A stretch of 64,000 bases of DNA from assembly GCF_003815875.1 (NCBI RefSeq), contig NZ_CP033924.1, positions 4,712,001 through 4,776,000 of the forward strand. The letters are read 5' to 3'. The stretch comes from Chryseobacterium lactis (GTDB lineage: Bacteria; Bacteroidota; Bacteroidia; Flavobacteriales; Weeksellaceae). Shown piece by piece: positions 10,627-24,539 of this stretch. Numbering within the stretch: position 1 is the first letter of the stretch; each line of letters begins with the position of its first letter. The position numbers and the translations under genes are program-made. The notes beneath the pieces are model-generated. The model was not told the DNA's origin. It worked only from the letters and a program-made list of their open reading frames with translations, and made no database searches.

Positions 10627-10767
10627 TTAATCAATAAGTCCACACTGTGATCCTATTGCGATACATTTTTTGACGAATGAGCACCAGAAATATCCTGGCA
10701 AACACATTGGGATACCTCCCTGAACGGTTTTCAATTCTCTTTTTGAAAGTTTTCTTAGGTTTTTCAT
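10627..10767 (-). CDS. GG-leader bacteriocin-like Cys-rich peptide (46 aa)
   Basis: Translating the minus strand from ATG at 10767 gives a 46-residue peptide. Its leader is MKNLRKLSKRELKTVQGG, the short 'KNLKKLsRxELKxIxGG' leader that I associate with bacteriocin-like peptides of Chryseobacterium and relatives. After the Gly-Gly (residues 17-18) comes a 28-residue core with four cysteines (positions 22, 29, 35, 42) and aromatic residues (GYFWCSF). A terminator follows at 10576-10599. It sits 178 bp beyond the stop of the C39-peptidase exporter, which could plausibly cut at its Gly-Gly. A longer ORF in another frame covers the same DNA and is not believed. Confidence 0.75.
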   Translation of the reverse strand: MKNLRKLSKRELKTVQGGIPMCLPGYFWCSFVKKCIAIGSQCGLID

Positions 10768-10945: not shown

Positions 10946-13147
10946 TTAGCCTAGTTCCAATTGATTCTTTACAAGATGGTAGTAATTCGCCTTGTTATTC
11001 ACCAATTCCTGATGACTTCCCTGTTCTACTATTTCACCCTTTTTGAGAACAACGATGTTATCGGCATTTTTAACGGTAGAAAGTCGATGGGCAATAATAA
11101 TAACTGTTTTCCCTTTGAAAAACTCCTGCAAATTATCGTGAATCACTTTTTCATTGTCCGCATCCAATGCTGAAGTAGCTTCGTCAAACAAGATAAAATG
11201 AGGATCTTTATAAACAGCTCTTGAAATTAGAATCCTTTGTTTTTGTCCACCCGAAATACCGTTACCTGAAGCTCCTATCTTTGTATTCAAACCTAGAGGC
11301 AATTCATCTACAAACGATTGTATATTGGCAATATGCAAAGATCGTTTCATCTTAGATTCATCTATGATCTCATCACTGGTTCCAATATTTCTCTCAATTG
11401 TATCAGAAAATATATAGCCATCCTGCATTACCACCCCACAATTTTTTCTCAGTTCACGCGGTGAAATTTCTTTAAGGTTGGCATGATTAAGATAGATATC
11501 TCCTTCTACCGGATCATAGAATTTCAAAAGCATCTTCATTAATGTAGTCTTACCGCTTCCACTTGCTCCTACAATAGCTGTAATTTTTCCTTCCGGAATA
11601 AACATATTAATATTTTTGAGAACATATGGAGACTGAGGCCCTTCGTACTGAAAAGAAACATTTTTAAGATAGATTCCTCTTTCTATACCGTTTTTCTTGG
11701 CATATTTTTCATGAGTAAGATCAATTAATCCTTCTGATTCTTCTTCCGCATGCTCATGTACTTCATTTAAACGAACCAAGCTTAACTTCGCATCTTGTAA
11801 CGACCTGAAAAAATCTACCAACTGATTGATCGGTGAATTCATTTGCCCTATAATATAAGAAACACTCAGTAGGGCTCCCAAGGTCATATGTCCTTTTACA
11901 ACAAATGAGGCAGCCAGAAAGGTAACGATAATGTTTTTTAATTGGTTGATAAATTCGAATCCTGAAAGCTGCATCTGATCGATCTTTAGGAATCTCATAT
12001 TTATTTTAAAGAGTTTCTGCTGTATTTTTTCCCATTCTTTTCGTTTAAAATCTTCAAATTGATTAATTTTCATTTCTGATACTCCATTAATCATTTCGTA
12101 GATAATTTCCTGATTTTCTCCTCTCTTTTGGAATCGGTAGTAGTCCAGCATTTTCCTTTTTTTAAGCCATATTACCGACCATAATACAGATAAAGCAGTT
12201 AATACCAAGTACACCAACAGTATTTTATAATCATAATAAAATAACACCCCAAAAAAGACAGAAAATGTGATAATAGAGAAAAAAGTCAGCAAACTATTTG
12301 AAGTTAAAAACTGTTCTATCCTTTCATTATCTGCTATTCGTTGTGAAAAATCACCAATCATTTTACTATCAAAAAAATTGATCGGAAGTTTTAAAACTTT
12401 CTGTAAAAATTCTGAGATAATATTGATGCTAAGGTGAGTTCCTATATACAGCATCAGCCAGTTTCTGAAGATATTGATGATAATTGACCCCAGAAACACT
12501 CCCAACTGGGCGAGAAGTATGATAAAGATAAAATTAAGATTCTTTGCATTCACCCCTTTATCAATCAGAGCTTCGGTAAGAAATGGAAAAACCAGAGTCA
12601 GAGCACTTCCTACCAATAATAGCAAGAACATGGTAAAGAGTTGTTTTCTGTAAGGTTTTACATATTTAAGAAGATGCTTAGTCGTTAATTCATCTACAGC
12701 GGGAGGAGCAAGGTCATGAAATTTCTGTGTAGGATTGACGAAGAGTGCGATTCCCTCATGTTCGTCAGAGCGCCATAATTTTTCAAATTCACTTTCGGAT
12801 AAGCTGATTAATCCATAAGCAGGATCTGCCACTTTATAGGTTCTCTTTTTTGTCCAGATAGATTCTTTGACATCGTAAAGAACGACAAAATGCTTTTTTT
12901 TCCAATGCAAAATGCATGGCAAAGTACCATGATCATTGAGGGTATTTATATTTATTTTTGACGCAATGGTTTCTACGCCAAGCTCATCGGCAGCCTGTCT
13001 GATACTAAGCAAGGATACTCCTTCTTTAGAGATATGAGATAGCTTTCGCAAATATTGGATCGGATAATCTTTTCCCAGAATATTAAGAACCATTTTCAAA
13101 CATGCCGGTCCGCAATCCATCCTATCGTGTTGTGGTGTGAACTTCAT
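10946..13147 (-). CDS. C39 peptidase-containing ABC exporter (bacteriocin/lanthipeptide type)
   Basis: The 733-residue half-transporter would remove double-glycine leaders and export the mature peptide. Residues 1-140 are a C39 protease: MDCGPAC with catalytic Cys12, His86 in KKHFVVLY and Asp108 in VADPA. Residues about 160-440 hold six transmembrane helices. The ATPase follows, with Walker A GASGSGKTT, signature ISGGQKQR, Walker B FILFDEATSALD and H-loop IIIAHRLS. Its start overlaps the LanB stop by 4 bp (ATGA), so it is translationally coupled in the lan operon. Its obvious substrates are the five GG-leader precursors at 19543-20747. No HlyD adaptor or TolC gene is adjacent. Confidence 0.93.
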   Translation of the reverse strand: MKFTPQHDRMDCGPACLKMVLNILGKDYPIQYLRKLSHISKEGVSLLSIRQAADELGVETIASKININTLNDHGTLPCILHWKKKHFVVLYDVKESIWTKKRTYKVADPAYGLISLSESEFEKLWRSDEHEGIALFVNPTQKFHDLAPPAVDELTTKHLLKYVKPYRKQLFTMFLLLLVGSALTLVFPFLTEALIDKGVNAKNLNFIFIILLAQLGVFLGSIIINIFRNWLMLYIGTHLSINIISEFLQKVLKLPINFFDSKMIGDFSQRIADNERIEQFLTSNSLLTFFSIITFSVFFGVLFYYDYKILLVYLVLTALSVLWSVIWLKKRKMLDYYRFQKRGENQEIIYEMINGVSEMKINQFEDFKRKEWEKIQQKLFKINMRFLKIDQMQLSGFEFINQLKNIIVTFLAASFVVKGHMTLGALLSVSYIIGQMNSPINQLVDFFRSLQDAKLSLVRLNEVHEHAEEESEGLIDLTHEKYAKKNGIERGIYLKNVSFQYEGPQSPYVLKNINMFIPEGKITAIVGASGSGKTTLMKMLLKFYDPVEGDIYLNHANLKEISPRELRKNCGVVMQDGYIFSDTIERNIGTSDEIIDESKMKRSLHIANIQSFVDELPLGLNTKIGASGNGISGGQKQRILISRAVYKDPHFILFDEATSALDADNEKVIHDNLQEFFKGKTVIIIAHRLSTVKNADNIVVLKKGEIVEQGSHQELVNNKANYYHLVKNQLELG

Positions 13148-16100
13148 ACTTTATTAAATTTCATTTTCCCGATTCTTTCTTTATAAAACTTATGCAGAAT
13201 ATTGTATATCAAAAGTTCATGTGCTCTTGCATTGGCTTTGATATACCTGTTAACATGCATATGGATAATACTGTCAATGAACTCTCTCTTCCGGGGGCTC
13301 AGATGTTTACAGATTTTTTTTATTTTCAAAAATCTATTTTCTGTTATATCATGATAATCTGATCTTTCTATGATTGAAGACAGAAGATTCTGATGATCTC
13401 TGAATTTTCTGTCCATCTGTTTCTTTATATTTTTATCAACATTAAATTCATCATTAAACCTGGCCGCCAAACTCTCCAAAACAGATAGTTTTTCATCATC
13501 ACTAAATTCAAAGGCATCCAAATATTGATTAATTGTCTGACACGCAATCATCCACAATCCAACATCCTGTTTTTCTGAATGGGACTCTAAAATATCAGTT
13601 ACCAGCTCACTGTCATAGTAAAATATTTTTTCAGCATGATCTATCATATTGTATCCATATCTTTCCAGTTCACGATCATAGGTTGACAGCTCAACTTTCC
13701 ATATACTTCCATTTTCAATATAATTTCTAATGTTCAAATTGAAGGATGCTATAATGGATCCCACTTCCTCTGCCGATGTGATTTTCATTCTGAATCTTAT
13801 ATGAAAATCAGGGTCATTATATCTTATAAAAAACCATTCTTTTATCAATTTTCTGTTAATAAGATCTTGTGCTAACGGCTTCAAACAAGAGATCAGAATT
13901 TCATCGGCGATTTTAACACCGGTATATATTTTGTAGTACAACCACTCATCTCCGGGAATAAATTTTTCACGAGTGGCATCGTCTGTGATCCTGTGAAGCG
14001 AAGAATTTATCTTAAAATCTTCATTTTTTAATGATAAAATTATTTCATTCGCGTAGTTGTCTTTTTCTATATCATAAATACATTCTTTTACATATACATT
14101 TTTATGTTTTTTCAATTCTTCAAACAGAATTGAGGTAAGAAGATCATTGTTCTGATCTATAAGAAATGTGTTATCACCCTGTACAAGATAAAAATACCTT
14201 GGCACTTTATGATCATTCAGGTGTTCTAATAAAGAATCATAACTTCCGGAAATATCATCTATACTTATTTTCCAGGTGGCAGCTGATAAGATAAGGTCTT
14301 CTCCACAAGTGACTCTGGGGAAAAACTTGAATACGGCATTATTGGCTTTTCCAAAGTTCATGAACAGATACGATGAATGATCCTGATGTTGAAAATCGCA
14401 CAAAAATTCATAAATAGGCAATGCATTATAATTGTAATTGTGCGCTGTGGAATTGTAGATTTTAATTTCTTTATTATGTTTTTTACTAAAAAGAATAATC
14501 CTGTTGTTCCAGACTTTAATGTAAATGTCATCCAGACTTATTTGTTCCGTATTTTCCGAACCGGTGGTCAAAAAAGAAACTTCATAGCTGCGTTTCACAT
14601 TTCTGGCCAGAATGTTCCCTACTCTGTCGTCCTGAACATGTAACAATTCACAATGTAAAATATTGTCATCAGCATTTTCATATTGAACAATTTCTGAAGC
14701 CAGTTCTTCAACCTCCTTATCCAGGTTTGAGAATCTTCCAATAAGGTTGATCGCACTATTATTACCAATGCTTTCAATAATAATTTTATCTCCGGCCTTA
14801 TTATACATTGCTGAAAAGGAAGCCGGTAAGTTTTCTACTTTGGTTTCCGAAAATGCAGAAAGGTCAATATTTTCGAGATCAAGCGCTTTATCTTTATAAC
14901 GAGAAGCTTCTATAAGTTTTGTTCTCCAAAAATTGTGTAACTGATTTTGGTAGGTAAGATTATTGGTTGAGCTGGCAGCAAAATTCCACTCGATATCATC
15001 AATCAGATCAGAAAATGTACTGAAAACGTTATTATCCTGCTTATATCCGATTCCTGTTTCATTATCCAAAGCGGTCGTTAATGGAATTGCCTTATCCTCA
15101 TATCTTTTATAAAAGGTTTCTTTAAATTTTTCCAGATTTTGCTTACTTCCGGTATTTTCTGCATTTTGGGTCAAATGGGAAAATATATTGATTGCTTTTC
15201 TTATTTTTTTTAAATCTTCGTTTGAAGGCTTTACAGGAGAAGCTACTTTAAGATTTGAGTTGATGACTTGTTTTTTGTCGTACTGAGTCTGTATAATCTG
15301 ATCAATATTTTCGTAGACTGAATTATAAATCTTTGTTGTATCACTGAATACCTGCTCATCTAATTTTCGAAAACCAGCTAGCATAGCAGAAAGATTGTTA
15401 TATATTTCTTCAAATTTTGCATCATATTGCAATTCTGTATTGTGGTCTTCCAAGAAGTTAAAAATCTGAAGAAGAGGGTGAGTTTCGTTAATACAAACGT
15501 CCAGATTACTTACAATAACCTGGCTATCAATAAGACCTGAAATATACATCTGTATGTCTTCCTCAGTTACATCTTCTACATTTTCATCAATAAATGCTGC
15601 TATTTCTCTGACAGATCTTGGGGTAGCACAAAATGGAAAAAGAATATTCAAAACCTCATCTTCCTCCAAGGATGTAAGGACATGTTCTCTTTTACCATTT
15701 AATTTTATTTCGATGTATCTGTACCCATTCCCTGATTTATATAATGAATAATTGGGTGTATATTTTAGAATATTTTGTACTGATGGTAAACTGTTAAGCA
15801 GACGAACGATTTTGAATACTATAGAAAGATCCAATGTTGTGTATCTCTTATATTCCTGATCTGAACATTCTTCCTCAGCATTGATTTTCGCCAGAGAATA
15901 TGCAGAAAATAATCCAAACGGAGTTGATCTGGAAACAGATCTGATATAATATTTAAGCAGGGAAAGACCTATTTTTTTTTCTTCCTTTTCCGGCAATCTT
16001 TTAAAAAAAATAATCTTTTCCCATTCAGCATATAATTCAGATGAAGCGACATAAAGAGCATCTCTGAACTGCACATTATTCCATAAGTTTTTTATAAAAT

Positions 16101-16197
16101 CATATAGATTCGTATGGCTATCTGGGACATCATTATATTTTTCCAGTTGAAACAACGGAGTTCTTATAAATGCAGTATTGAAGAAGCTTATTTTCAT
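13144..16197 (-). CDS. Class I lanthipeptide dehydratase (LanB), full length
   Basis: The 1017-residue protein should dehydrate Ser and Thr in the precursor core through glutamyl-tRNA-dependent glutamylation and elimination. The N-terminal glutamylation domain shows the hallmark RSVSRSTPFGLFSAY (residues 86-100), equivalent to the RxTPFG block of NisB. The C-terminal elimination domain (SpaB_C type, from about residue 740) shows GDEWLYYKIYTG, EWFFIRYNDPDFHIRFRM and the YDRELERYG block. Both catalytic halves are in one chain, unlike the split LanBs of some clusters. It lies 5 bp after the flavin oxidoreductase and overlaps the exporter by 4 bp. The family call is firm; the product is unknown. 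Confidence 0.93.
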   Translation of the reverse strand: MKISFFNTAFIRTPLFQLEKYNDVPDSHTNLYDFIKNLWNNVQFRDALYVASSELYAEWEKIIFFKRLPEKEEKKIGLSLLKYYIRSVSRSTPFGLFSAYSLAKINAEEECSDQEYKRYTTLDLSIVFKIVRLLNSLPSVQNILKYTPNYSLYKSGNGYRYIEIKLNGKREHVLTSLEEDEVLNILFPFCATPRSVREIAAFIDENVEDVTEEDIQMYISGLIDSQVIVSNLDVCINETHPLLQIFNFLEDHNTELQYDAKFEEIYNNLSAMLAGFRKLDEQVFSDTTKIYNSVYENIDQIIQTQYDKKQVINSNLKVASPVKPSNEDLKKIRKAINIFSHLTQNAENTGSKQNLEKFKETFYKRYEDKAIPLTTALDNETGIGYKQDNNVFSTFSDLIDDIEWNFAASSTNNLTYQNQLHNFWRTKLIEASRYKDKALDLENIDLSAFSETKVENLPASFSAMYNKAGDKIIIESIGNNSAINLIGRFSNLDKEVEELASEIVQYENADDNILHCELLHVQDDRVGNILARNVKRSYEVSFLTTGSENTEQISLDDIYIKVWNNRIILFSKKHNKEIKIYNSTAHNYNYNALPIYEFLCDFQHQDHSSYLFMNFGKANNAVFKFFPRVTCGEDLILSAATWKISIDDISGSYDSLLEHLNDHKVPRYFYLVQGDNTFLIDQNNDLLTSILFEELKKHKNVYVKECIYDIEKDNYANEIILSLKNEDFKINSSLHRITDDATREKFIPGDEWLYYKIYTGVKIADEILISCLKPLAQDLINRKLIKEWFFIRYNDPDFHIRFRMKITSAEEVGSIIASFNLNIRNYIENGSIWKVELSTYDRELERYGYNMIDHAEKIFYYDSELVTDILESHSEKQDVGLWMIACQTINQYLDAFEFSDDEKLSVLESLAARFNDEFNVDKNIKKQMDRKFRDHQNLLSSIIERSDYHDITENRFLKIKKICKHLSPRKREFIDSIIHMHVNRYIKANARAHELLIYNILHKFYKERIGKMKFNKV

Positions 16198-16202
16198 AAT
16201 AT

Positions 16203-17156
16203 TTAAACGCTAAGAGAAAATTTCTCGCTTATTTTTTTTAAATTATTTATTTTTTCATCATTTGTTGGGGCAAGATCATAAATGATGAATTCGTGGATTC
16301 CAAAATCCTGCTGCCATTTTTGAAGTAATTCCTGCAAAGTATCAATCGTTGATGGGATGATAATAAATGGATCTACAGAATTCTTTTTAGCTTCCATTTC
16401 TAAATTTTCAACTTTTTCTTTAGCCACCGAAAGAGTATCTTCCAAAATGATTGCTAAAGAAATCGTTAATCCAGGTTTTCTTTCGTGAATTGAATAAAAC
16501 TCTTGACTTGATCTATTGATATGATCCTTATCAAACCCTAGATTATGAATATCCTGTCCAAAATTGTGAAATACAGATATGCAATGATTCATATTGATAT
16601 CTACGGTCTTATGAAAAGTATTAAAGCTTGTAGAAAGATGCCATAACTCGGGTTTCAATCCTTTATAAGGAGGGATTAAAACTGATTTTGATTGTAGATT
16701 TTCTTCTTCATTTTCCAGTAAATCAATTATTTCCCTGAAATTATCCTGAAACTTACTAAAGTTATTATTCCGATCTACATTGCATGCATTCTGAATATAA
16801 GTACTATCGGGAATTCCTTTTGAAAGCCCTAATGCGATACGATCATAAAACAGATTATTCAACAGCTTGTAAGTAGAAACCGTTGCATAAGGAGTATACA
16901 AATTGATCGATGTGCCGGCTGATGCAATTTTTATTCTTTCTGTAGATCCTGCAATTAAAGAAATAAGAATATCAGGATTGGTATACGGATGATTTTGAAT
17001 GTGGGTATAATGATGTTCTGCCAGCCAAAATCTTGAAAATCCGTAATTCTCTGCTTCAACTGCATAATCGATAATCTCGCTGATACTTGTTACAGAATCA
17101 GAAGTTTCCCGATACCCTAAATCAATAATGCCTAATTTAATTTGTAAATCTTCCAT
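16203..17156 (-). CDS. Luciferase-like (LLM class) flavin-dependent oxidoreductase
   Basis: The 317-residue protein is a bacterial-luciferase-like TIM barrel. Hallmarks are the N-terminal YAVEAENYGFSRFWLAEHH, the TSINLYTPYATVSTYKLLNNLFYDRIALGLSKG core and the later LSLAIILEDT-type strand. It should use reduced flavin. In lanthipeptide clusters LLM proteins are known as dehydroamino-acid reductases (making D-Ala or D-Abu from Dha or Dhb) or as oxidative tailoring enzymes; in a flavobacterium FMN is a likelier cofactor than F420. It sits 3 bp after lanC and 5 bp before lanB, so a tailoring role in this pathway is a strong inference. The exact reaction cannot be read from the sequence. Confidence 0.85.
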   Translation of the reverse strand: MEDLQIKLGIIDLGYRETSDSVTSISEIIDYAVEAENYGFSRFWLAEHHYTHIQNHPYTNPDILISLIAGSTERIKIASAGTSINLYTPYATVSTYKLLNNLFYDRIALGLSKGIPDSTYIQNACNVDRNNNFSKFQDNFREIIDLLENEEENLQSKSVLIPPYKGLKPELWHLSTSFNTFHKTVDINMNHCISVFHNFGQDIHNLGFDKDHINRSSQEFYSIHERKPGLTISLAIILEDTLSVAKEKVENLEMEAKKNSVDPFIIIPSTIDTLQELLQKWQQDFGIHEFIIYDLAPTNDEKINNLKKISEKFSLSV

Positions 17157-17159
17157 CTC

Positions 17160-18320
17160 TTATGTTAAAAATTCAAAATAATTACTATTCTCATAAGTTC
17201 CTTCGAGAACCACTAATGCTCCTGTTTTCCCATATAACAAGGACAAATCTCTTATAGCAAACTCCTGATCTTTAGCTTCCTCAAGAAACTCCAGCGTCTT
17301 GTTTTTCCATTCTTCACACTTTTCTTTATAAATGTCCAGAGGATCTAGCTGATGAAGTTTGTGATATAAAAATGCAAGACCTGAACTGCCATGACAAAAA
17401 TGCTCATCTTCTACCCCTGTCACAGTCGAAGGGCTTCTTTTAGTCGTTTCCAATCCTATTTTTTGAGAAAGACCTATATACTTATCATTGTCTAAAAGCT
17501 TTCCTGCTTTCAACAGATAGTAAGCGAAAGTAAGATCACTATTACACCATGCCAGCCTGTTGTTTTGATGTTTAATGAATTGATCATCCTTGATATGGAT
17601 AGAATGGTATTTATAAATATGTACATTTTCAGCGATGTAGTCCTCATTTAAATTATCGATAATATAGTCTAAAAGATTTTCTATACCTCTGCGAACTACA
17701 GGATTCTCTCCAAAGATCAGAGTATAATCGATATATGTTTTTATAATTCCTAGATACCCATGTTTTAATCCCAAATTATATCCTTGTGTGTATGGGTTAT
17801 CACATATAGTGTAGAATGAATTATTAAATTTTTGTAGTGATTGTATAATCCGGTCTGCTTTTTCCGGAGTAGCCTGCCAATGCAAAAAGTACTGAAGGTT
17901 TCCAAAAGGTCCGCCCAGATAATCAAAATAATTATTGGCTATCATCTCCAGACTATTTTCTAAAATGATCTCATCAATAGTGTTTAACTGATCTTCAAAG
18001 TCTTCTGCATCCAGAATATTCTCCGCGATCAATAATTTTAAGGTAAACGCAAGCCCCGTTAAACCGTCAATAAAAGTTGATTTTTTATATAAATTCTCTT
18101 TAGTTTCATGTTCCAGATTGGTAAAGATTACTTCCAGTAATTCAACAATTTTATCAAGATAAATCTCGTCTTTCGTATGTTTATAGCATACTAGAAAGTA
18201 ATTGGCAACATTTAGTTTTCCAAGAGATATATCGTCATTCAATGTTGAAAAATCGAAGTTTAAAAATTTTTCTTTGTAAATATCTGCAATATCTGTGTGC
18301 AATAAATTATCATATATCAT
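17160..18320 (-). CDS. Lanthipeptide cyclase (LanC), zinc ligands intact
   Basis: The 386-residue protein belongs to the LanC family of zinc enzymes that add Cys thiols to dehydrated residues to form (methyl)lanthionine rings. The three expected zinc ligands are present: Cys259 in RLAWCNSDL, and Cys309-His310 in EHFCHGSSGLAF. GLKHGYLG with His187 matches the conserved active-site GxxHGxxG block. WCNSDL departs from the usual WCYGDPG. Its start overlaps the stop of the upstream LanC-like gene by 11 bp, and the LLM gene follows after 3 bp. It is the probable working cyclase of the cluster. Confidence 0.9.
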   Translation of the reverse strand: MIYDNLLHTDIADIYKEKFLNFDFSTLNDDISLGKLNVANYFLVCYKHTKDEIYLDKIVELLEVIFTNLEHETKENLYKKSTFIDGLTGLAFTLKLLIAENILDAEDFEDQLNTIDEIILENSLEMIANNYFDYLGGPFGNLQYFLHWQATPEKADRIIQSLQKFNNSFYTICDNPYTQGYNLGLKHGYLGIIKTYIDYTLIFGENPVVRRGIENLLDYIIDNLNEDYIAENVHIYKYHSIHIKDDQFIKHQNNRLAWCNSDLTFAYYLLKAGKLLDNDKYIGLSQKIGLETTKRSPSTVTGVEDEHFCHGSSGLAFLYHKLHQLDPLDIYKEKCEEWKNKTLEFLEEAKDQEFAIRDLSLLYGKTGALVVLEGTYENSNYFEFLT

Positions 18321-19479
18321 ATCCGAGTAATCTTAAAAATGAAGGGGTAGATTTCTTGTTATTCAGCAGGTTTATACCTATACCGGCTAATCCCTGAGAA
18401 AGACTAAGTTGGGCAAAATCATATGTTCCGTTAAAGTAGGTATTATAGCCCGCCCATTGACTATTCTCATTTCCTAATTTGAGGATCTCATGATACCAAT
18501 GAACTTCAGCTTGCTTAAATACATCCATTCCATATATTTCATGAAAATGGGCAAAAAGTAAATTCAGGCCTGAAGCTCCATAGATAATATTGGCATCTTT
18601 GATAAATTCTTTGTGCGGATCCCTGTAAAGAGCTGCATTTTTTAATATTTCTAATCCTTCACTAATCAGAAAATCGTCTTCAAATTTCTTTCCTGTTTCT
18701 GTAATGATATAGCCAATCCCAATATCACCGTAAGTAAAATTATGATATCCCAACATGTCTTCAGTAAAGGCATTTTGAGGAAACATATTAATCTGACCAT
18801 ATTTTTTTTGAGATAAAATGAAATTGATGGCTGAGTAGATCATTTCCTTACATTTATCTTTATGAAGAGCAGTGATGGTATAAAGTTTCAATAAAAATGA
18901 TACAATTCCCGCACTACCATGATGAAGGTTGAGTTCAATATTTTTTTCACCTCTTAAATCAAACTCCCAGTAGATCATATCTTCATTCAATCTGATACTT
19001 TCTTGCTCAATCAAATTGAAAATTTCCAATAATATTTCAGTCTGGTCACTGTCTGTTGAACGTGATAAAAAATAGGTTCCCCCGGTCAATGCACCTGAAA
19101 TATTGTCAAGATTCTTATTGTTGATTTCTAATCTGGTAATTTCAAGAACGATCTGATCAAATTCCAGCATAAATTCATCCTCTTTCAATACATTATGATG
19201 GGTAAGAAATTGAAGATACAGTCCTAGCTGAATGATATCTGTTTTGGTTGTAAAACTGGTATAATCTCCATCTAATTTCTCTATACATTCTTCTACTATT
19301 TCCAAAGAAAGATTTAAAGAGTATTCATCCTTAGAATCCAAAAAGCAGTAATAATAAAATAATGACAACCCCAAAATCCCATTGGAAAGGCCAATGCCTT
19401 GTAATTTTTCCTTACTTTTTTCCAGACAGCTTTTAATGCTGCTTATTTTATCGTACAATTTATCTGAGCTTACATCCAT
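18310..19479 (-). CDS. LanC-like protein lacking zinc ligands (pseudo-cyclase)
   Basis: The 389-residue protein has the LanC alpha/alpha-toroid pattern of GxxG motifs: LSNGILGLSL, LHHGSAGIVSF, HNFTYGDIGIGY, IIYGASGLNLLF and LSQGLAGIGINLL. It keeps the active-site histidine block (His187), but all zinc-ligand positions are changed: WCYGDPG has become FTYGDIG (Cys to Thr249) and CHG has become IYG (Ile299, Tyr300). It should not bind catalytic zinc. It is intact, the same length as its neighbour, and is the first gene after the precursor array, so it is not decaying debris. Likely roles are a partner subunit for the true LanC, leader or substrate binding, or immunity; all are inference. Confidence 0.85.
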   Translation of the reverse strand: MDVSSDKLYDKISSIKSCLEKSKEKLQGIGLSNGILGLSLFYYYCFLDSKDEYSLNLSLEIVEECIEKLDGDYTSFTTKTDIIQLGLYLQFLTHHNVLKEDEFMLEFDQIVLEITRLEINNKNLDNISGALTGGTYFLSRSTDSDQTEILLEIFNLIEQESIRLNEDMIYWEFDLRGEKNIELNLHHGSAGIVSFLLKLYTITALHKDKCKEMIYSAINFILSQKKYGQINMFPQNAFTEDMLGYHNFTYGDIGIGYIITETGKKFEDDFLISEGLEILKNAALYRDPHKEFIKDANIIYGASGLNLLFAHFHEIYGMDVFKQAEVHWYHEILKLGNENSQWAGYNTYFNGTYDFAQLSLSQGLAGIGINLLNNKKSTPSFLRLLGYDI

Positions 19480-19495
19480 AGTATATTTATAAAAA

Positions 19496-19519
19496 AGAGA
19501 CTGCTCTTAGACAGTCTCT
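19496..19519 (-). terminator. Terminator/attenuator between precursor genes and lan biosynthetic genes
   Basis: AGAGACTG-TCTAAGAG-CAGTCTCT on the minus strand is an 8-bp perfect stem followed by TTTTTTATA. It lies between the stop of the last precursor gene (19543) and the start of the LanC-like gene (19479). Partial read-through here would yield many more precursor transcripts than enzyme transcripts, the usual need in lanthipeptide operons. Confidence 0.75.
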
Positions 19520-19542
19520 TCCAGGAAACTTAAAAAGTATTC

Positions 19543-19707
19543 TTAGTCTTGTAATTTTGTTGGCACCTTAGTGTTGTTATTACAAGATCCACCAACGCAT
19601 GAGAAAGCAGCTGCTCCTCCTTTGATGCTCTTAATTTGCTCGTCTTGTAATTTACTGATTGCTTCTTTGTTGATTTGAAGACCTTTGTTTAATTTTAACT
19701 TTTTCAT
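19543..19707 (-). CDS. Class I lanthipeptide precursor, copy 1 (divergent C-terminus)
   Basis: This 54-residue precursor starts with the Bacteroidota-type leader MKKLKLNKGLQINKEAISKL and ends the leader at KSIKGG (Gly30-Gly31). The core carries SCVGGSCNNNT like the other copies, but the tail reads KVPTKLQD and stops two residues earlier, instead of KEATKLQDPS. It is the last copy in transcription order, next to the attenuator hairpin. Two cysteines (37, 42) and four Ser/Thr are available in the core. The gene is shorter than usual ORF cut-offs. The lack of a Shine-Dalgarno site is normal for this phylum. Confidence 0.9.
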   Translation of the reverse strand: MKKLKLNKGLQINKEAISKLQDEQIKSIKGGAAAFSCVGGSCNNNTKVPTKLQD

Positions 19708-19747
19708 AATGGTTGATTTAATGATTTAAAATGGTTTTATTTAAACA

Positions 19748-19777
19748 AGAAAGAGATTGAGAAATCAATCCCTTTCT
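19748..19777 (-). terminator. Hairpin in precursor spacer 1-2 (type A)
   Basis: On the minus strand AGAAAGGGATTGA pairs with TCAATCTCTTTCT (13 bp, one G-U) around a 4-nt loop, just after the stop of copy 2. The following TTGTTTAAAT is a weak U tract, so it may be an RNA-processing or stability hairpin and not a full terminator. Equivalent hairpins occur at 20008-20037 (type B), 20268-20297 (type A) and 20528-20557 (type B). Confidence 0.6.
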
Positions 19778-19796
19778 AAATAATAGTTTTAATAGA

Positions 19797-19967
19797 CTAT
19801 GAAGGGTCTTGTAGCTTAGTAGCTTCTTTTGTATTGTTATTACAAGATCCACCTACACAAGAAAAAGCTGCTGCTCCCCCTTTGATGCTCTTAATTTGTT
19901 CGTCTTGTAATTTACTGATTGCTTCTTTGTTGATTTGAAGACCTTTGTTTAATTTTAACTTTTTCAT
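19797..19967 (-). CDS. Class I lanthipeptide precursor, copy 2
   Basis: A 56-residue precursor with leader residues 1-31 ending KSIKGG and a 25-residue core that begins AAAFSCVGGSCNNNT and ends LQDPS. Core cysteines are 37 and 42; Ser/Thr candidates for dehydration are Ser36, Ser41, Thr46, Thr50 and Ser56. The leader pattern (LNK...INKEAISKLQDEQIKSIKGG split by helix-forming residues) is the class I leader typical of Bacteroidota. It is followed by a 13-bp hairpin at 19748-19777. Identical in protein sequence to copies 3-5. Confidence 0.92.
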   Translation of the reverse strand: MKKLKLNKGLQINKEAISKLQDEQIKSIKGGAAAFSCVGGSCNNNTKEATKLQDPS

Positions 19968-20056
19968 AATGGTTGATTTAATGATTTAAAATGGTTTTAT
20001 TTAAATAAGAAAGAGATTGAGAAGTCAACCCCTTTCTAAATAATAGTTTTAATAGA

Positions 20057-20227
20057 CTATGAAGGGTCTTGTAGCTTAGTAGCTTCTTTTGTATTGTTAT
20101 TACAAGATCCACCTACACAAGAAAAAGCTGCTGCTCCCCCTTTGATGCTCTTAATTTGTTCGTCTTGTAATTTGCTGATTGCTTCTTTGTTGATTTGAAG
20201 ACCTTTGTTTAATTTTAACTTTTTCAT
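20057..20227 (-). CDS. Class I lanthipeptide precursor, copy 3
   Basis: Same 56-residue product as copy 2. It differs from copy 2 only by a silent Ser codon (AGC for AGT at residue 19) within the coding part. A type B spacer hairpin follows at 20008-20037, in which an A-U pair of the type A hairpin has become G-U, so the stem is kept. The C39 exporter should cleave after Gly31. Confidence 0.92.
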   Translation of the reverse strand: MKKLKLNKGLQINKEAISKLQDEQIKSIKGGAAAFSCVGGSCNNNTKEATKLQDPS

Positions 20228-20316
20228 AATGGTTGATTTAATGATTTAAAATGGTTTTATTTAAACAAGAAAGAGATTGAGAAATCAATCCCTTTCTAAA
20301 TAATAGTTTTAATAGA

Positions 20317-20487
20317 CTATGAAGGGTCTTGTAGCTTAGTAGCTTCTTTTGTATTGTTATTACAAGATCCACCTACACAAGAAAAAGCTGCTGCTCCCCC
20401 TTTGATGCTCTTAATTTGTTCGTCTTGTAATTTACTGATTGCTTCTTTGTTGATTTGAAGACCTTTGTTTAATTTTAACTTTTTCAT
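20317..20487 (-). CDS. Class I lanthipeptide precursor, copy 4
   Basis: Same product as copies 2, 3 and 5. At the DNA level it carries the AGT version of the Ser19 codon, like copy 2, and is followed by a type A spacer hairpin at 20268-20297. Copy 4 plus its downstream neighbour copy 3 alternate in the same pattern as copies 2 and 5, supporting a dimer duplication. Confidence 0.92.
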   Translation of the reverse strand: MKKLKLNKGLQINKEAISKLQDEQIKSIKGGAAAFSCVGGSCNNNTKEATKLQDPS

Positions 20488-20576
20488 AATGGTTGATTTA
20501 ATGATTTAAAATGGTTTTATTTAAATAAGAAAGAGATTGAGAAGTCAACCCCTTTCTAAATAATAGTTTTAATAGA

Positions 20577-20747
20577 CTATGAAGGGTCTTGTAGCTTAGT
20601 AGCTTCTTTTGTATTGTTATTACAAGATCCACCTACACAAGAAAAAGCTGCTGCTCCCCCTTTGATGCTCTTAATTTGTTCGTCTTGTAATTTGCTGATT
20701 GCTTCTTTGTTGATTTGAAGACCTTTGTTTAGTTTTAACTTTTTCAT
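20577..20747 (-). CDS. Class I lanthipeptide precursor, copy 5 (promoter-proximal)
   Basis: Same 56-residue product. It is the first precursor in transcription order, 140 bp after the TonB receptor stop. Its 5' flank differs from the other copies from the start codon outward (TCATGATAG versus TCATAATGG), marking the upstream edge of the repeat array. An in-frame ATG at 20795 would add 16 residues, but the other four copies cannot use such a start, and the leader consensus begins at MKKLKLNK, so 20747 is preferred. Confidence 0.92.
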   Translation of the reverse strand: MKKLKLNKGLQINKEAISKLQDEQIKSIKGGAAAFSCVGGSCNNNTKEATKLQDPS

Positions 20748-20813
20748 GATAGTTGATTTAATGTTTTGTAATTGTGAGTTATCTTTTATTGTCATAAAAC
20801 TCTTTACTGGACC

Positions 20814-20827
20814 TTATTTGCAAATAA
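20814..20827. promoter_or_regulatory. 14-bp perfect palindrome upstream of the precursor array
   Basis: TTATTTGCAAATAA is a perfect palindrome 67-80 bp upstream of the first precursor start and 60 bp after the TonB receptor stop. It contains TTATTTG, close to but not matching the TAnnTTTG box. It could be an operator or part of an internal promoter that boosts precursor expression; no regulator gene lies in the cluster. Confidence 0.3.
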
Positions 20828-20887
20828 TATATTGATACTTTTCTCTCTTATTGCGCACTAAGAAATAATCAGTAAGTCAATCAGTTT

Positions 20888-23293
20888 TTAGCTTGATGCT
20901 CTTGCTTTTTCATCTTCATTTCCAAAATCTTTTTGTTCTACAGATACCTTTTTGTTTCCAAATTTGTATGTTATCGATATTCTGAAATTCCGGGTATCGT
21001 AATAATTTTTGAATGATATTTTCACACCGTTTGAATAAGCGGAATAAGTAGTTCTCTGACCATCAAACAGATCATTGGCTACCAATCCGAGTCGCAAATT
21101 ATTATTGAGCAGACTGTAAGCAAAGCTAATGCTCATATTCGATCTTGAAGTCGATTTATAAATATCCTGAACGCCTGGTAAGCTGTATTCATAATTTAAG
21201 CCCGCCTGCAATGTTTTACTTTTGTTCAGGTTTAAAGTATTGTAAACAGAAAACCCGAGATTCCATCCTGCTAAACTAGGATTCGTGAAGTTCACTAAAG
21301 ATTTCGAATCCGAATAAAAAGCATCGGCTGAAGCTACCGTTTCTATCCAGCTGAAAGCTTTGAATGTGTAAGATTCATTAATACCAAAAGTGTTGGTTTC
21401 AAAATAATTTTCAGGTCGTACGATCTGAATATTGGTAACAGGATCAATAACCGGTAATTGTTGAAAACCATCACTTAATCTTGTATAATAAATTTTATTC
21501 GCCCAGTTTTTATAGGTATAATTGGCTTCTACATTATCAGTATATGAAGGCTGTAAAAAAGGATTTCCTTCTATATAGGTATATTGGTTTGTAACTGTTC
21601 TAAACGGATTAAGAAACTCAAATGAAGGCCGGTTGATTCTTTTACTGTAATTGGCGGAAAGACTGCTATTTTTGTTCACAGCATATAATACATAGGCCGT
21701 AGGGAAAAATTTGATATAGTCTCTGGTAAATGTCTCATTACTGTTACTCCCTTTAATATTGGTATTTTCAGCTCTTAATCCCAGCTGGAAAGTCCATTTA
21801 TCAATTGCCTTTTCTGCAGAAACATAGCCTGCCTGAGTATTTTCCTTATAATCAAAATTATTTACCTGTCTGTATCCGGGATCCGTTTCTCCAAGGTTCA
21901 AATTAAACAAACTCAGATCATTCGTGGTATTGGAAAACGATATTTTAGCTCCCATGCTTAATTTTAAGCCTTTCATTGGAATTTCCAGATCAGATTTCAC
22001 AGACGTATTGTTGAGATTCAGTTTTCCGTAATTAGAGCCATTTTGTTGGGTTGAAATATCTTCAACGTCGTTGTAAAAATTTCCCGAAGTAAACCTATAA
22101 TCTGATTTTTCTTTATAATTAAAATAATCAACGTCCAGACTCAGTTTTGTTCCTACACTATCTATTTTATACAACGCATGAAAATTAAGTGAGTTGGCAG
22201 GTGATTTTGAATTTGACTGAGCATTTGTAATAATATCGTACTGCTTATTAAGCATCGAATTATCAAATACTGAGATTACATTATTCCTGTTATTAATTTT
22301 CATATTGCTGACTTGCGTTAAAAAAATTGCCCCTAATGAAATTTTATTACTGATATCATAGTCTGCGCCAACCCTAAATCCCAATGACGGGTCGTAGGTT
22401 ACTTTTCTCGGCTGGTATCCAACCCATGTTTCGCTGGAAAAACCCATCACATTCTGATCAATATTTTTTTGTGCCCCCTCCGAATAACTAAAATTGCTGC
22501 TTACTGCAAGCTTATTCTTTTTGTATAAAAAGTTTCCCCCAACAGCACCCAATGCATAAGTCTTTTGGGTATAAGAACCTCTTATCGAAGCATTCCAGTT
22601 ATTATTTTTTCCTGTTTTATATTTAATATTAATAAGTCCGCTATTTCCCTGAGCATCGTACTTTGCAGGCGGAGTAGTGATTATTTCAATAGATTTGACA
22701 TCATCAGATGAAATCGATTTCAGATAGTTCACCAGATCATTTCCACTAAGCTGAACAATTCTGTCATCAAGCAGTACAGAAACTCCGCTTTTCCCTATAA
22801 TTGATATCTCATCATTCTTTACCTGAACTCCGGGGATTACCCTTAAGGTATCCAAAATATCACCTCCCTGCGCAGATACTGATTTTTCAACATTAAAAAC
22901 GAGTCGGTCTATTTTCCGATCTATTAATCTTTTTTCAGATTTTATTACAACACCCTCGATATTCTGAACAGCCTCGATTTTAAAATCTTTATGAAGATCA
23001 CTATTTATTAATGTTTTTTCACTTATAAGTTGCTCTCCGTTTTGTATGATTTGAATAGTATAATTCCCTTCTTTAGGAACTTTGATCTGAAACTGACCAT
23101 TAATATCCGTTATAGAAGAAAATTTTTCGTTAGCCTCAGACATAGCAATGACTTCTACATCTGAAAGTTTTTTGTGGCCTGCATTCAGTACATTTCCCGT
23201 AATGCTTTGTGCCTGGCTAACAGCTCCGAAACAAAAAAATATCACCAATAAAATTAGCCTTGGTACTCTACATCTCATCTTCTTTCGTTTCAC
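20888..23293 (-). CDS. TonB-dependent outer-membrane receptor (outer membrane beta-barrel type)
   Basis: The 801-residue protein has a signal peptide (to about residue 28, AVSQAQ), a carboxypeptidase-regulatory-like beta domain (SITGNVLNAGHKKLSDVEVIA, residues 30-110), a plug with LDTLRVIPGVQVKNDEISIIGKSG and the DDVKSIEIITTPPAKYDAQG strand near residue 205, then a long beta-barrel ending in aromatic strands (FRISITYKFGNK). The plug and barrel resemble the flavobacterial OMP_b-brl_3 group, not SusC. It leads the lanthipeptide operon under a good promoter (23369-23397). Possible jobs are uptake of a cue, re-import or immunity to the product, or help in release; none is proven. The C-terminus is an unusual charged tail (FGNEDEKARASS). 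Confidence 0.85.
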   Translation of the reverse strand: MKRKKMRCRVPRLILLVIFFCFGAVSQAQSITGNVLNAGHKKLSDVEVIAMSEANEKFSSITDINGQFQIKVPKEGNYTIQIIQNGEQLISEKTLINSDLHKDFKIEAVQNIEGVVIKSEKRLIDRKIDRLVFNVEKSVSAQGGDILDTLRVIPGVQVKNDEISIIGKSGVSVLLDDRIVQLSGNDLVNYLKSISSDDVKSIEIITTPPAKYDAQGNSGLINIKYKTGKNNNWNASIRGSYTQKTYALGAVGGNFLYKKNKLAVSSNFSYSEGAQKNIDQNVMGFSSETWVGYQPRKVTYDPSLGFRVGADYDISNKISLGAIFLTQVSNMKINNRNNVISVFDNSMLNKQYDIITNAQSNSKSPANSLNFHALYKIDSVGTKLSLDVDYFNYKEKSDYRFTSGNFYNDVEDISTQQNGSNYGKLNLNNTSVKSDLEIPMKGLKLSMGAKISFSNTTNDLSLFNLNLGETDPGYRQVNNFDYKENTQAGYVSAEKAIDKWTFQLGLRAENTNIKGSNSNETFTRDYIKFFPTAYVLYAVNKNSSLSANYSKRINRPSFEFLNPFRTVTNQYTYIEGNPFLQPSYTDNVEANYTYKNWANKIYYTRLSDGFQQLPVIDPVTNIQIVRPENYFETNTFGINESYTFKAFSWIETVASADAFYSDSKSLVNFTNPSLAGWNLGFSVYNTLNLNKSKTLQAGLNYEYSLPGVQDIYKSTSRSNMSISFAYSLLNNNLRLGLVANDLFDGQRTTYSAYSNGVKISFKNYYDTRNFRISITYKFGNKKVSVEQKDFGNEDEKARASS

Positions 23294-23368
23294 GATTATA
23301 CTAGTTTTTACTCATATACTTATGTATATTTTAATGTATTTCTCTATTTATTGAAAAACAATTAAATC

Positions 23369-23397
23369 CAAATATAGGGATATTTTTGACTCAGCAA
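23369..23397 (-). promoter_or_regulatory. Promoter of the TonB receptor / lanthipeptide operon
   Basis: On the minus strand TTG (23395-23397), an 18-bp spacer and TATATTTG (23369-23376) fit the flavobacterial -33/-7 pattern. Transcription would begin near 23363, giving a leader of about 70 nt before the receptor start at 23293. Confidence 0.55.
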
Positions 23398-23559: not shown

Positions 23560-23973
23560 TTATTGATAAATCACAACATCATCTTTTTTAATTTGGTAAC
23601 CCGTTTTCTTGTAAGGAACCAAAAGATAATTGTCCTTAATGTAGCTTCCGCTTTTCCAGATTTTATTTTTCCCTTCCCTTTCAAGAATAATACTCTTTGC
23701 ATTTCCATCAGGAATGAAAATTTCAGCTCGTTTCATATCTTTACTAAAAATGACTGCTGTCATCGTAGTATAGCTTTTATCCGAGTTCACCTCTTTTAAT
23801 TTGATTTTCTGTTCAAAAACTCTTACACAATCATTTTTGATTTGTGAGTAGGTATACCCTGCGGAACCCTTACAGCCATGAACATCTCTATCACCTCCTA
23901 AAACCGGAGCTTTTTGTTGAGCAAAAGCCAAAGAGCCCAGGAACATAGCGCTAAATAAAATTGTTTTTTTCAT
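23560..23973 (-). CDS. Small secreted protein, paralogue A (unknown function)
   Basis: The 137-residue protein starts at MKKTILFSAMFLGSLAFAQ, a clear signal peptide; an upstream in-frame extension to 24036 is ignored because it would bury that signal. The mature part begins with LGGDRDVHGCKGSAGYTYSQIKNDCVR, a motif with two cysteines also seen in the neighbour, then a beta-rich region ending GYQIKKDDVVIYQ. I remember GGDRDxHGCxxSAGYxW motifs in small exported bacterial proteins of unknown function. It has its own terminator, and its neighbour has another, so the two paralogues are separate transcripts. Confidence 0.75.
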   Translation of the reverse strand: MKKTILFSAMFLGSLAFAQQKAPVLGGDRDVHGCKGSAGYTYSQIKNDCVRVFEQKIKLKEVNSDKSYTTMTAVIFSKDMKRAEIFIPDGNAKSIILEREGKNKIWKSGSYIKDNYLLVPYKKTGYQIKKDDVVIYQ

Positions 23974-24107
23974 ATTTAAATTATTAATGTTTTCAGTTTG
24001 GTAAAAGTATTTCGACAATAAAGATATTAATTTCATTATTAGTTACAAAAAAACCATAATTAGGAGATTTTATTTGTCAAAATAATTTGCCGGCTTGCAC
24101 AAAAAAA

Positions 24108-24129
24108 AGACCATTCCAATGAATGGTCT
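24108..24129 (-). terminator. Terminator of secreted paralogue B
   Basis: AGACCATTC-ATTG-GAATGGTCT on the minus strand is a 9-bp stem followed by TTTTTTT, 20 bp after the stop at 24150. Confidence 0.85.
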
Positions 24130-24149
24130 GATTTTTTTAAAACCTGATT

Positions 24150-24539
24150 TTATTGATAAATCACGACATTATCCTTTTTAAGCTGATATCCGCTTTTTTT
24201 GAAAGGAACCAGTACGTAACCTTCATTTTTCCACGCTTTAGCTTTTCCCGCTCTGGTAAGAATTACACTTCCTCCTTCTGCATCTTTCACAAAAACTTCA
24301 GCTTTTTTCATGTCTTTGCTGAAAATAACAGCAGCCATATAGTCTCCGTTGGTAGAAACTTCTTTGAGCTTTATTTTTTGTTCAAAAGTTCTTACACAGT
24401 CTTTTTTGATCTGTGAATACGTATACCCTGCCGATCCAATACATCCGTGTGCATCTCTGTCACCACCTAATACCGGTGTTTTTTGTGCAAATACTAAAGT
24501 ACCAAGGAACATTGCGCTAAGTAAAATTGTTTTTTTCAT
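24150..24539 (-). CDS. Small secreted protein, paralogue B (unknown function)
   Basis: The 129-residue protein has the signal peptide MKKTILLSAMFLGTLVFAQ and the same layout as its downstream neighbour: LGGDRDAHGCIGSAGYTYSQIKKDCVR, EQKIKLKEV, AAVIFSKDMKKAEVF and a KKSGYQLKKDNVVIYQ end. Identity between the two is roughly two thirds by eye, so they are a tandem duplication. The two cysteines in the N-terminal motif may form a disulfide. Function unknown; export to the periplasm or surface is the only firm inference. Confidence 0.75.
   Translation of the reverse strand: MKKTILLSAMFLGTLVFAQKTPVLGGDRDAHGCIGSAGYTYSQIKKDCVRTFEQKIKLKEVSTNGDYMAAVIFSKDMKKAEVFVKDAEGGSVILTRAGKAKAWKNEGYVLVPFKKSGYQLKKDNVVIYQ

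Follow-up and report, generated by a model that had tools for sequence, protein, structure and literature searches.

Class I lanthipeptide clusters are numerous in the Bacteroidetes, and by 2020 the pinensins were the only lanthipeptides that had been isolated from these bacteria (Walker et al. 2020, PMC7268733). The cluster analyzed here lies at positions 10946 to 23293 on the minus strand of a 64,000-nucleotide stretch of Chryseobacterium lactis DNA (NZ_CP033924.1, positions 4,712,001 to 4,776,000; referred to as the window), which is part of one 5.6-Mb contig. In order of transcription, it encodes a TonB-type receptor, five LanA precursors, a LanC-like protein without zinc ligands for which we coined the name LanCx, a second LanC, a luciferase-like monooxygenase (LLM), LanB, and a C39-ABC exporter. 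Several described systems resemble parts of this set. First, the Bacteroidetes class I systems with LxLxKx5L-GG leaders share the leader type, the Gly-Gly (GG) site, the C39 exporter, LanB, and LanC; neither the LanCx-LanC-LLM set nor an S-C-x3-[S/T]-C core is described in the available part of that paper, which relates the pinensin-family LanCs to LanM domains (PMC7268733). Second, ChmABC of Chryseobacterium sp. OV715, which was expressed in Escherichia coli, comes from the same genus and likewise has class I LanA, LanB, and LanC. However, three genes were used there, and the product undergoes seven dehydrations with three dehydroamino acids reacting with Cys, whereas the window core contains five Ser/Thr residues and a pair of Cys; because of this mismatch in dehydrations, the ChmA product cannot be the window core (PMC9993889). 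Third, the metal-independent cyclase domain of the class III enzyme ThurKC has, like LanCx, a LanC fold without the zinc triad, but it is fused to lyase and kinase domains, carries Ser, Phe, and Asp at the ligand places, and has Asp for His212 (PMC10604976). In contrast, LanCx stands alone, belongs to a class I cluster, and retains His212. Fourth, an LLM also occurs in the birimositide cluster, where LanJC is a proposed reductase of a two-component Streptomyces lanthipeptide with class II family precursors (PMC7268733).

Other reported clusters are more distant or less defined. A Tenacibaculum class I lanthipeptide cluster (PMC10734526) could be a relative of the window family. LanC-like proteins without zinc motifs were reported from LanB-less Bacteroidales clusters, where they are suspected to be non-lanthipeptide enzymes (PMC10352776), and a YcaO cluster of Chryseobacterium carnipullorum has a LanM-like enzyme that also lacks the conserved zinc site (PMC10676384); the window gene set was seen in neither of these, as far as the available texts go. 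The earlier note on this DNA had matched the cluster to none that its writer could name. We reached the same result, with ChmA excluded and no description of the LanCx-LanC-LLM set found in the open-access literature (supplements not covered), and the operon family is apparently undescribed. It is an ordinary class I chassis, with a GG leader and a C39 exporter, that carries an unusual conserved pair of cyclases, an LLM in constant linkage with them, and a tightly defined core motif.

The proteins of the operon support its assignment as a complete class I lanthipeptide operon, as judged from families, catalytic blocks, and conservation. The Pfam families Lant_dehydr_N and C, LANC_like (in both LanCs), Bac_luciferase, Peptidase_C39, ABC_membrane, ABC_tran, and OMP_b-brl_3 all scored over their cut-offs. 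LanB (13144..16197; this and all other window features below are on the minus strand) is full length and contains both the glutamylation and the elimination domains (PF04738, 331 bits; PF14028, 212 bits). It aligned with NisB over residues 27 to 1013, through the RSTPFGLFS, RYxDPxxHIR, YDxExERYG, and IIHxHxNR blocks, and carries STPFGLFS at 91 and FIRYNDPDFHIRF at 790. The protein encoded at 17160..18320 (PF05147, 81 bits) is a separate LanC with the C/C/H zinc ligands Cys259, Cys309, and His310. The LanA precursors combine a class I leader (NF038153) with a core of Ser, Thr, and Cys, and the exporter (10946..13147) joins a C39 peptidase domain (PF03412) bearing Cys12, His86, and Asp108 to a permease (PF00664) and an ATPase (PF00005). 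The earlier note had called the operon complete and listed the LanB STPFGLFS and a second LanB block along with these LanC and C39 residues, and all of them were located, with every gene where it had been placed, in one direction, and in an open frame. The open frames rule out a pseudogene operon. The earlier note's statement that the last genes are joined by overlaps or gaps of 3 to 5 bp held for three junctions (LanC-LLM gap, 3 bp; LLM-LanB gap, 5 bp; LanB-ABC overlap, 4 bp) but not for LanCx and LanC, which overlap by 11 bp.

By gene content and order, this operon is not a singleton but a recurring, conserved Flavobacteriales operon family. Including the window, 27 loci were found in Chryseobacterium, Tenacibaculum, Aquimarina, Myroides, Flavobacterium, and one further member of the Flavobacteriaceae. 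The full order TonB-LanA(n)-LanCx-LanC-LLM-LanB-ABC was present in 20 of them (the window and 19 of the 26 others), and since the order is so widely shared, the gene set is beyond chance or artefact. Among the full-order loci, two (L047 and L050) have split genes and one (L051) has a second LanB behind. Three of the remaining loci run off the contig before the receptor is reached, and four (L117, L118, L126, and L127) differ. LanB is split in L047, L050, and L118, and the receptor and exporter are also split in L050. A good example of the linkage is the search of 173 genomes of the genus, in which the LanCx profile matched 19 loci with at least 435 bits, followed by a drop to 222 bits, and the LLM profile matched 19 with at least 442 bits, followed by a drop to 236 bits; the two sets of loci are identical and come from 18 genomes. 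Judged by LanB, the nearest operon stood at 56%. In a sample of 395 genomes from the larger order, two genomes from other genera, G348 and G231, were the only ones to come near this LanCx level (308 and 286 bits), with the proviso that scoring in the many-genome searches was confined to the top candidates from a first pass. A GTDB scan added Tenacibaculum (three loci), Aquimarina, Myroides, and the one Flavobacteriaceae member; 13 of its 19 loci, all from Chryseobacterium, were left out as already covered. The contig that carries the G120 locus is 25.6 kb long. The C. lactis genome itself has two more LanB loci (L052 and L053), one full length and one split, and phmmer searches of their wider surroundings found no LanCx, LLM, or receptor of the window type. 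A search of a plasmid collection gave one distant Spirosoma match at 28.5%.

The two LanC homologues show opposite losses of active-site residues. In the described enzymes, zinc activates the thiolate, His212 protonates the enolate, and Tyr285 stabilizes it (PMC9934072), and zinc is considered central to lanthionine cyclization outside class III (PMC10604976). LanCx (18310..19479; PF05147, 66 bits) has Thr, Ile, and Tyr in place of the Cys, Cys, and His ligands but keeps His187 and Tyr250, as seen in alignments with 8byk and, as a profile, with NisC, and the family profiles of LanCx and LanC both match NisC. The full zinc triad was present in none of the 27 LanCx proteins, three of which retain the first Cys alone, and the prediction of a zinc-free LanC partner is therefore borne out. 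Conversely, the equivalents of His212 and Tyr285 were kept in all 27, and that of Asp141 was kept in 22. LanCx does not have the three ligands of a canonical zinc LanC. Nor does it have the lyase and kinase that a class III LanKC carries on the same chain, as its 389 amino acids matched LANC_like only and scored weakly, far under the cut-offs, against the NCBIfam LanKC and LanL models (29.5 and 25.3 bits). The partner LanC, present in 25 loci, shows the reverse pattern. It retains the zinc triad in 22 of 25, the exceptions being G120, G348, and G231, while the Tyr285 place is replaced in every case (Asn in 24, including Asn260 of the window protein, and Ser in 1). Furthermore, one partner lineage (13 of 25) has changed Asp141 to Thr and His212 to Tyr; the other 12 keep both. 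Two loci depart from the pairing: L118 has LanCx with no LanC seen, and in L117 another LanC replaces the partner.

The zinc-free state is not limited to LanCx. Among the other LanC-like proteins at the loci examined, 18 have the triad and His212 (17 of them also the Tyr), and 13 further LanCs from other LanB loci (L072 to L083 and L088) retain only the first Cys of the triad and keep the His and Tyr. Four of these 13 clusters were read (L130 to L133), and in each the zinc-free LanC was the single LanC seen and the cores hold Cys. On an unrooted tree, the zinc-free state required two changes, and still two when the six active-site columns were removed. The first group, with 30 of 63 rows, joins LanCx to the 13 other zinc-free LanCs, and the second consists of the three partner LanCs from G120, G348, and G231 (support of 100/99 for each). 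The tree was built from 63 of 83 rows, with 10 Chryseobacterium loci of the 42% group omitted, and a long-branch warning stands for the G120 rows. The window LanCx grouped with G079 and then with Tenacibaculum, apart from the remaining Chryseobacterium loci, and this hints at transfer, at a support of only 88/89.

The precursors form an array with a 260-bp tandem unit (97% matches). Four encode the identical 56-amino-acid LanA with the 25-residue core AAAFSCVGGSCNNNTKEATKLQDPS. The first of these lies at 20577..20747 (the open reading frame list gave a start at 20795, but the repeat unit and leader family indicate 20747), followed by the second and third at 20317..20487 and 20057..20227 and the fourth at 19797..19967, which scored 43.6 bits against NF038153 (cut-off, 22). 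The fifth (19543..19707, an open reading frame of 54 amino acids) has the 23-residue variant core AAAFSCVGGSCNNNTKVPTKLQD and deviates from the other four solely behind a shared motif, S-C-x3-[S/T]-C. This motif was found in the cores of 26 of the 27 loci (G231 and 25 of the 26 in which a script detected precursors); the script also caught unrelated peptides, two in L045 and one in L122. By chance, the motif would be expected in 0.0008 to 0.016 per core, as estimated from 20,000 shuffles of each of 9 cores. None of the seven control clusters with machine-found precursors had it; the script gave no precursor for 4 of the 11 control loci. Among 169 homologous precursors, the 120 listed ones were checked: 111 had the motif, 4 had C-x3-[S/T]-C, and 5 had neither. 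In 43 of the 111, as in the window core, no Ser/Thr precedes the motif, and thus the first Cys can meet only the vicinal dehydroalanine or a residue on its C-terminal side. The four precursors of G231 (L144:6717-7737) each have a core with two motif-like [S/T]-C-x3-[S/T]-C stretches.

Overall, an active class I pathway that uses both LanCs is the best explanation we can offer for this pattern, with about even prospects of being right. Sequence shows the gene set and how well it is conserved, together with the core motif and the residue pattern of the two LanCs; the chemistry is our proposal. LanB would, with high confidence, dehydrate the two Ser/Thr of the motif using glutamyl-tRNA. LanCx and LanC might then both cyclize the motif, LanCx doing so metal-free through its retained His and Tyr; we give this step an equal chance of being right or wrong. 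An active metal-free LanCx is favored because the His and Tyr are kept, because zinc-free LanCs stand alone elsewhere, and because a class III cyclase functions metal-free (PMC10604976). The simplest two-ring product would be nested, with rings Ser5-Cys11 and Cys6-Ser10, although this topology is tentative. The calculated mass of the unmodified 25-residue core is 2512.13 Da, falling to 2494.12 Da with one and to 2476.11 Da with two dehydrations; two dehydrations and an added oxygen would give 2492.11 Da, two dehydrations and 2 H 2478.13 Da, and as many as five dehydrations could occur. The LLM could oxygenate the product in an FMNH2-dependent reaction, with a thioether sulfur as one example of a target, an assignment that falls just short of an even chance. 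The C39 exporter very probably cuts off the leader behind its Gly-Gly and delivers the core into the periplasm. At the outer membrane, the TonB-type protein may carry or sense the product and thereby serve self-uptake, self-protection, or passage, which is a toss-up in our view, and a bacteriocin or signal acting among related bacteria is a somewhat favored role for the product. In its most specific form, LanCx would represent a stand-alone, metal-independent class I cyclase group that, paired with a zinc LanC undergoing decay of its acid half, builds two opposed nested rings that are then oxidized with FMN; taken whole, this combination is unlikely. If it is true, G120, G348, and G231 would run the whole class I pathway zinc-free. 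A zinc-free class I group next to a partner with opposite losses, together with a linked LLM, makes the role of zinc directly testable, and LanCx and LanC can be compared on one short substrate with two Cys.

Several observations weigh against an active two-LanC pathway, as do the rivals considered below. First, this operon family has, to our knowledge, no described product, enzyme assay, or transcript. Second, the core of the Myroides locus L118 reads S-C-x6-S-C, which breaks the motif spacing, and this is also a locus with a split LanB. Third, the motif is not exclusive to LanCx clusters, because the LLM-free control cluster L131, one of the four for which the script gave no precursor, shows C-x3-S-C without the first Ser (read by eye) and four of five clusters with a second LLM type and no LanCx (L138 to L142) have C-x3-[S/T]-C; as an exclusive mark it is refuted. 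Fourth, the 111 of 120 count is biased and not independent because precursors that carry the motif served to build the homolog profile. Fifth, LanB-like genes are common, with a match in 133 of the 173 genus genomes at an E value of 0.001 or better. Finally, the receptor need not act specifically on the lanthipeptide, because its relatives lead unrelated peptide operons.

The assignment of the LLM bears on the last step. The window LLM (16203..17156; PF00296, 68.9 bits) is nearest to MsnO8, an enzyme of polyketide biosynthesis. Its closest solved sequence relative was PDB 4us5, titled luciferase-like monooxygenase, which we take to be MsnO8. It scored 104 bits against TIGR03558, whose cut-off of 167 was not reached, and at most 30 bits against the F420 families. 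The ten PDB matches of the LLM profile at 1e-5 were luciferase, alkanal monooxygenase, luciferase-like monooxygenase, or PuwE, with 4us5 the best. The genome gave no match to CofD (the same search was positive in 10 of 14 control genomes; it covered CofD and no other F420 gene), which makes an LLM of the F420-dependent kind unlikely. GarO of actagardine is also an LLM and is said to form a lanthionine sulfoxide; the available part of a published review gives only the sulfoxide. A LanJC-like reductase, which would convert leftover dehydroalanine to D-Ala and leave the mature core 2 Da heavier and unoxidized, is a less likely but serious candidate. The birimositide mass data fit the conversion of Ser to D-Ala, for which the LLM was proposed as LanJC (PMC7268733), and the window LLM has the same fold and Pfam family and also lies inside a lanthipeptide cluster. 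On the other hand, its nearest relatives are the luciferase and MsnO8 types rather than the F420 families, and the missing CofD argues the same way. The LLM assignment leans to an oxygenase, with LanJC-like reduction close behind. A second LLM type was found at 14 loci (203 to 236 bits), and in the five loci read (L138 to L142), it adjoins a LanC and a full-length LanB.

The main rival to an active LanCx is that LanCx is a dead LanC scaffold that presents the leader or core to LanC, LanB, or the LLM, while LanC alone forms the rings. We consider this unlikely but not negligible. It would account for the complete loss of the triad in LanCx beside its retention in most partner LanCs, and the LanC enzymes studied so far rely on zinc for thiol activation (PMC9934072). 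However, LanCx conserves the His and Tyr without exception, and it persists where LanC is not seen, replaced, or zinc-free (L118, L117, L051, L126, and L127). Zinc is also dispensable in class III (PMC10604976). Activity of a zinc-free LanC is further favored by L130 to L133, where no other LanC was seen and the cores contain Cys.

Two other explanations fared less well. The Cys pair of the motif might form a disulfide or remain as free thiols, with the Ser left as dehydroalanine or joined in a lanthionine with a single Cys. This would suit the 43 of 111 precursors in which the first Cys has no upstream partner except the vicinal residue, but the conservation of both LanC homologues, and of a second Ser/Thr placed four residues beyond the first Cys, speaks against it, and we regard it as improbable. 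The active site of a LanC enzyme lies within a single barrel, which makes its sharing by two proteins structurally hard. We rate as very unlikely a split site in which LanC supplies the zinc and thiolate and LanCx the acid and enolate-stabilizing residues; the complementary losses (no Tyr285 in any partner LanC and no Asp141 and His212 in 13 of 25, against His and Tyr in every LanCx) and the overlap of the two genes in the window fit it, but Asp141 and His212 are kept in 12 of 25 LanCs, L118 has LanCx without LanC, zinc-free LanCs stand alone in L130 to L133, and Asn at the Tyr285 place also occurs in LanM cyclases such as CinM and DurM (PMC9934072). The LanCL1 His277Asn variant had a higher kcat but also a higher Km (PMC9934072).

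The receptor gene leads the operon. It encodes an 801-amino-acid TonB-dependent receptor-like outer membrane protein with a GTG start (20888..23293; OMP_b-brl_3, PF14905, 297 bits). A receptor stood before the precursors in 23 of the 27 loci; three loci stop at the contig edge, and L126 had none in the stretch read. At 1e-100, relatives were found in 120 of 173 genus genomes by a search that scored five candidates per genome. Among 14 loci around other receptor matches, three (L152, L153, and L161) combine a radical S-adenosylmethionine (SAM) protein, the receptor, and a C39-ABC-like exporter by Pfam, and one (L163) has a nonribosomal peptide synthetase (NRPS) beside the receptor relative, also by Pfam. 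Four more (L154, L155, L156, and L158) looked like radical-SAM operons by eye only, and the receptor relative in the C. lactis genome (L165) is next to neither. The receptor as a specific mark of lanthipeptides is ruled out by these relatives, and from them it follows that a leading receptor is, as far as gene neighborhoods indicate, a feature of these bacteria's peptide operons more broadly. A promoter-like site (23369..23397) that matches TTG-N-TAtaTTTG lies ahead of the receptor gene. It was the single match on the minus strand between 9700 and 24700, compared to 1.6 in shuffled sequences, and the argument for it is therefore position, not count. A sigma-70 scan gave 64 sites against 67.8 expected. 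A hairpin with a T tail between the precursors and the enzymes (19493..19522; 12-pair stem; minimum free energy of the 66-nucleotide stretch, -16.1 kcal/mol) is a possible attenuator, but because only 3 of 17 loci tested have one, it was rejected as a family mark.

Several neighboring genes were also recorded. A LuxR-type regulator (GerE), a FeeM-like acyltransferase, and a ThiF protein lie near the receptor at L035:178-2473 and L107:4205-6555 by Pfam, the acyltransferase at 25 to 26 bits, just under the cut-off of 27; the same neighborhood was seen by eye only at L144:1781-4191 and L131:1853-3358. The FeeM-like protein and the LuxR-type regulator could be a pair of signal synthase and regulator, and a relative of the former was found in 35 of 173 genus genomes, not including that of the window. 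Upstream of the window receptor, two paralogous small proteins, 69% identical, are encoded at 23560 to 24539 and match no family over its cut-off. Behind the exporter, at a distance of 178 bp, a small GG-leader peptide (10627 to 10767) scored 37 bits against the "bacteriocin-like" NF047798 (cut-off, 23.5) and has a core unlike the LanA cores. Farther away, at 52109 to 58015, the window encodes an alpha-2-macroglobulin-like protein of 1968 amino acids.

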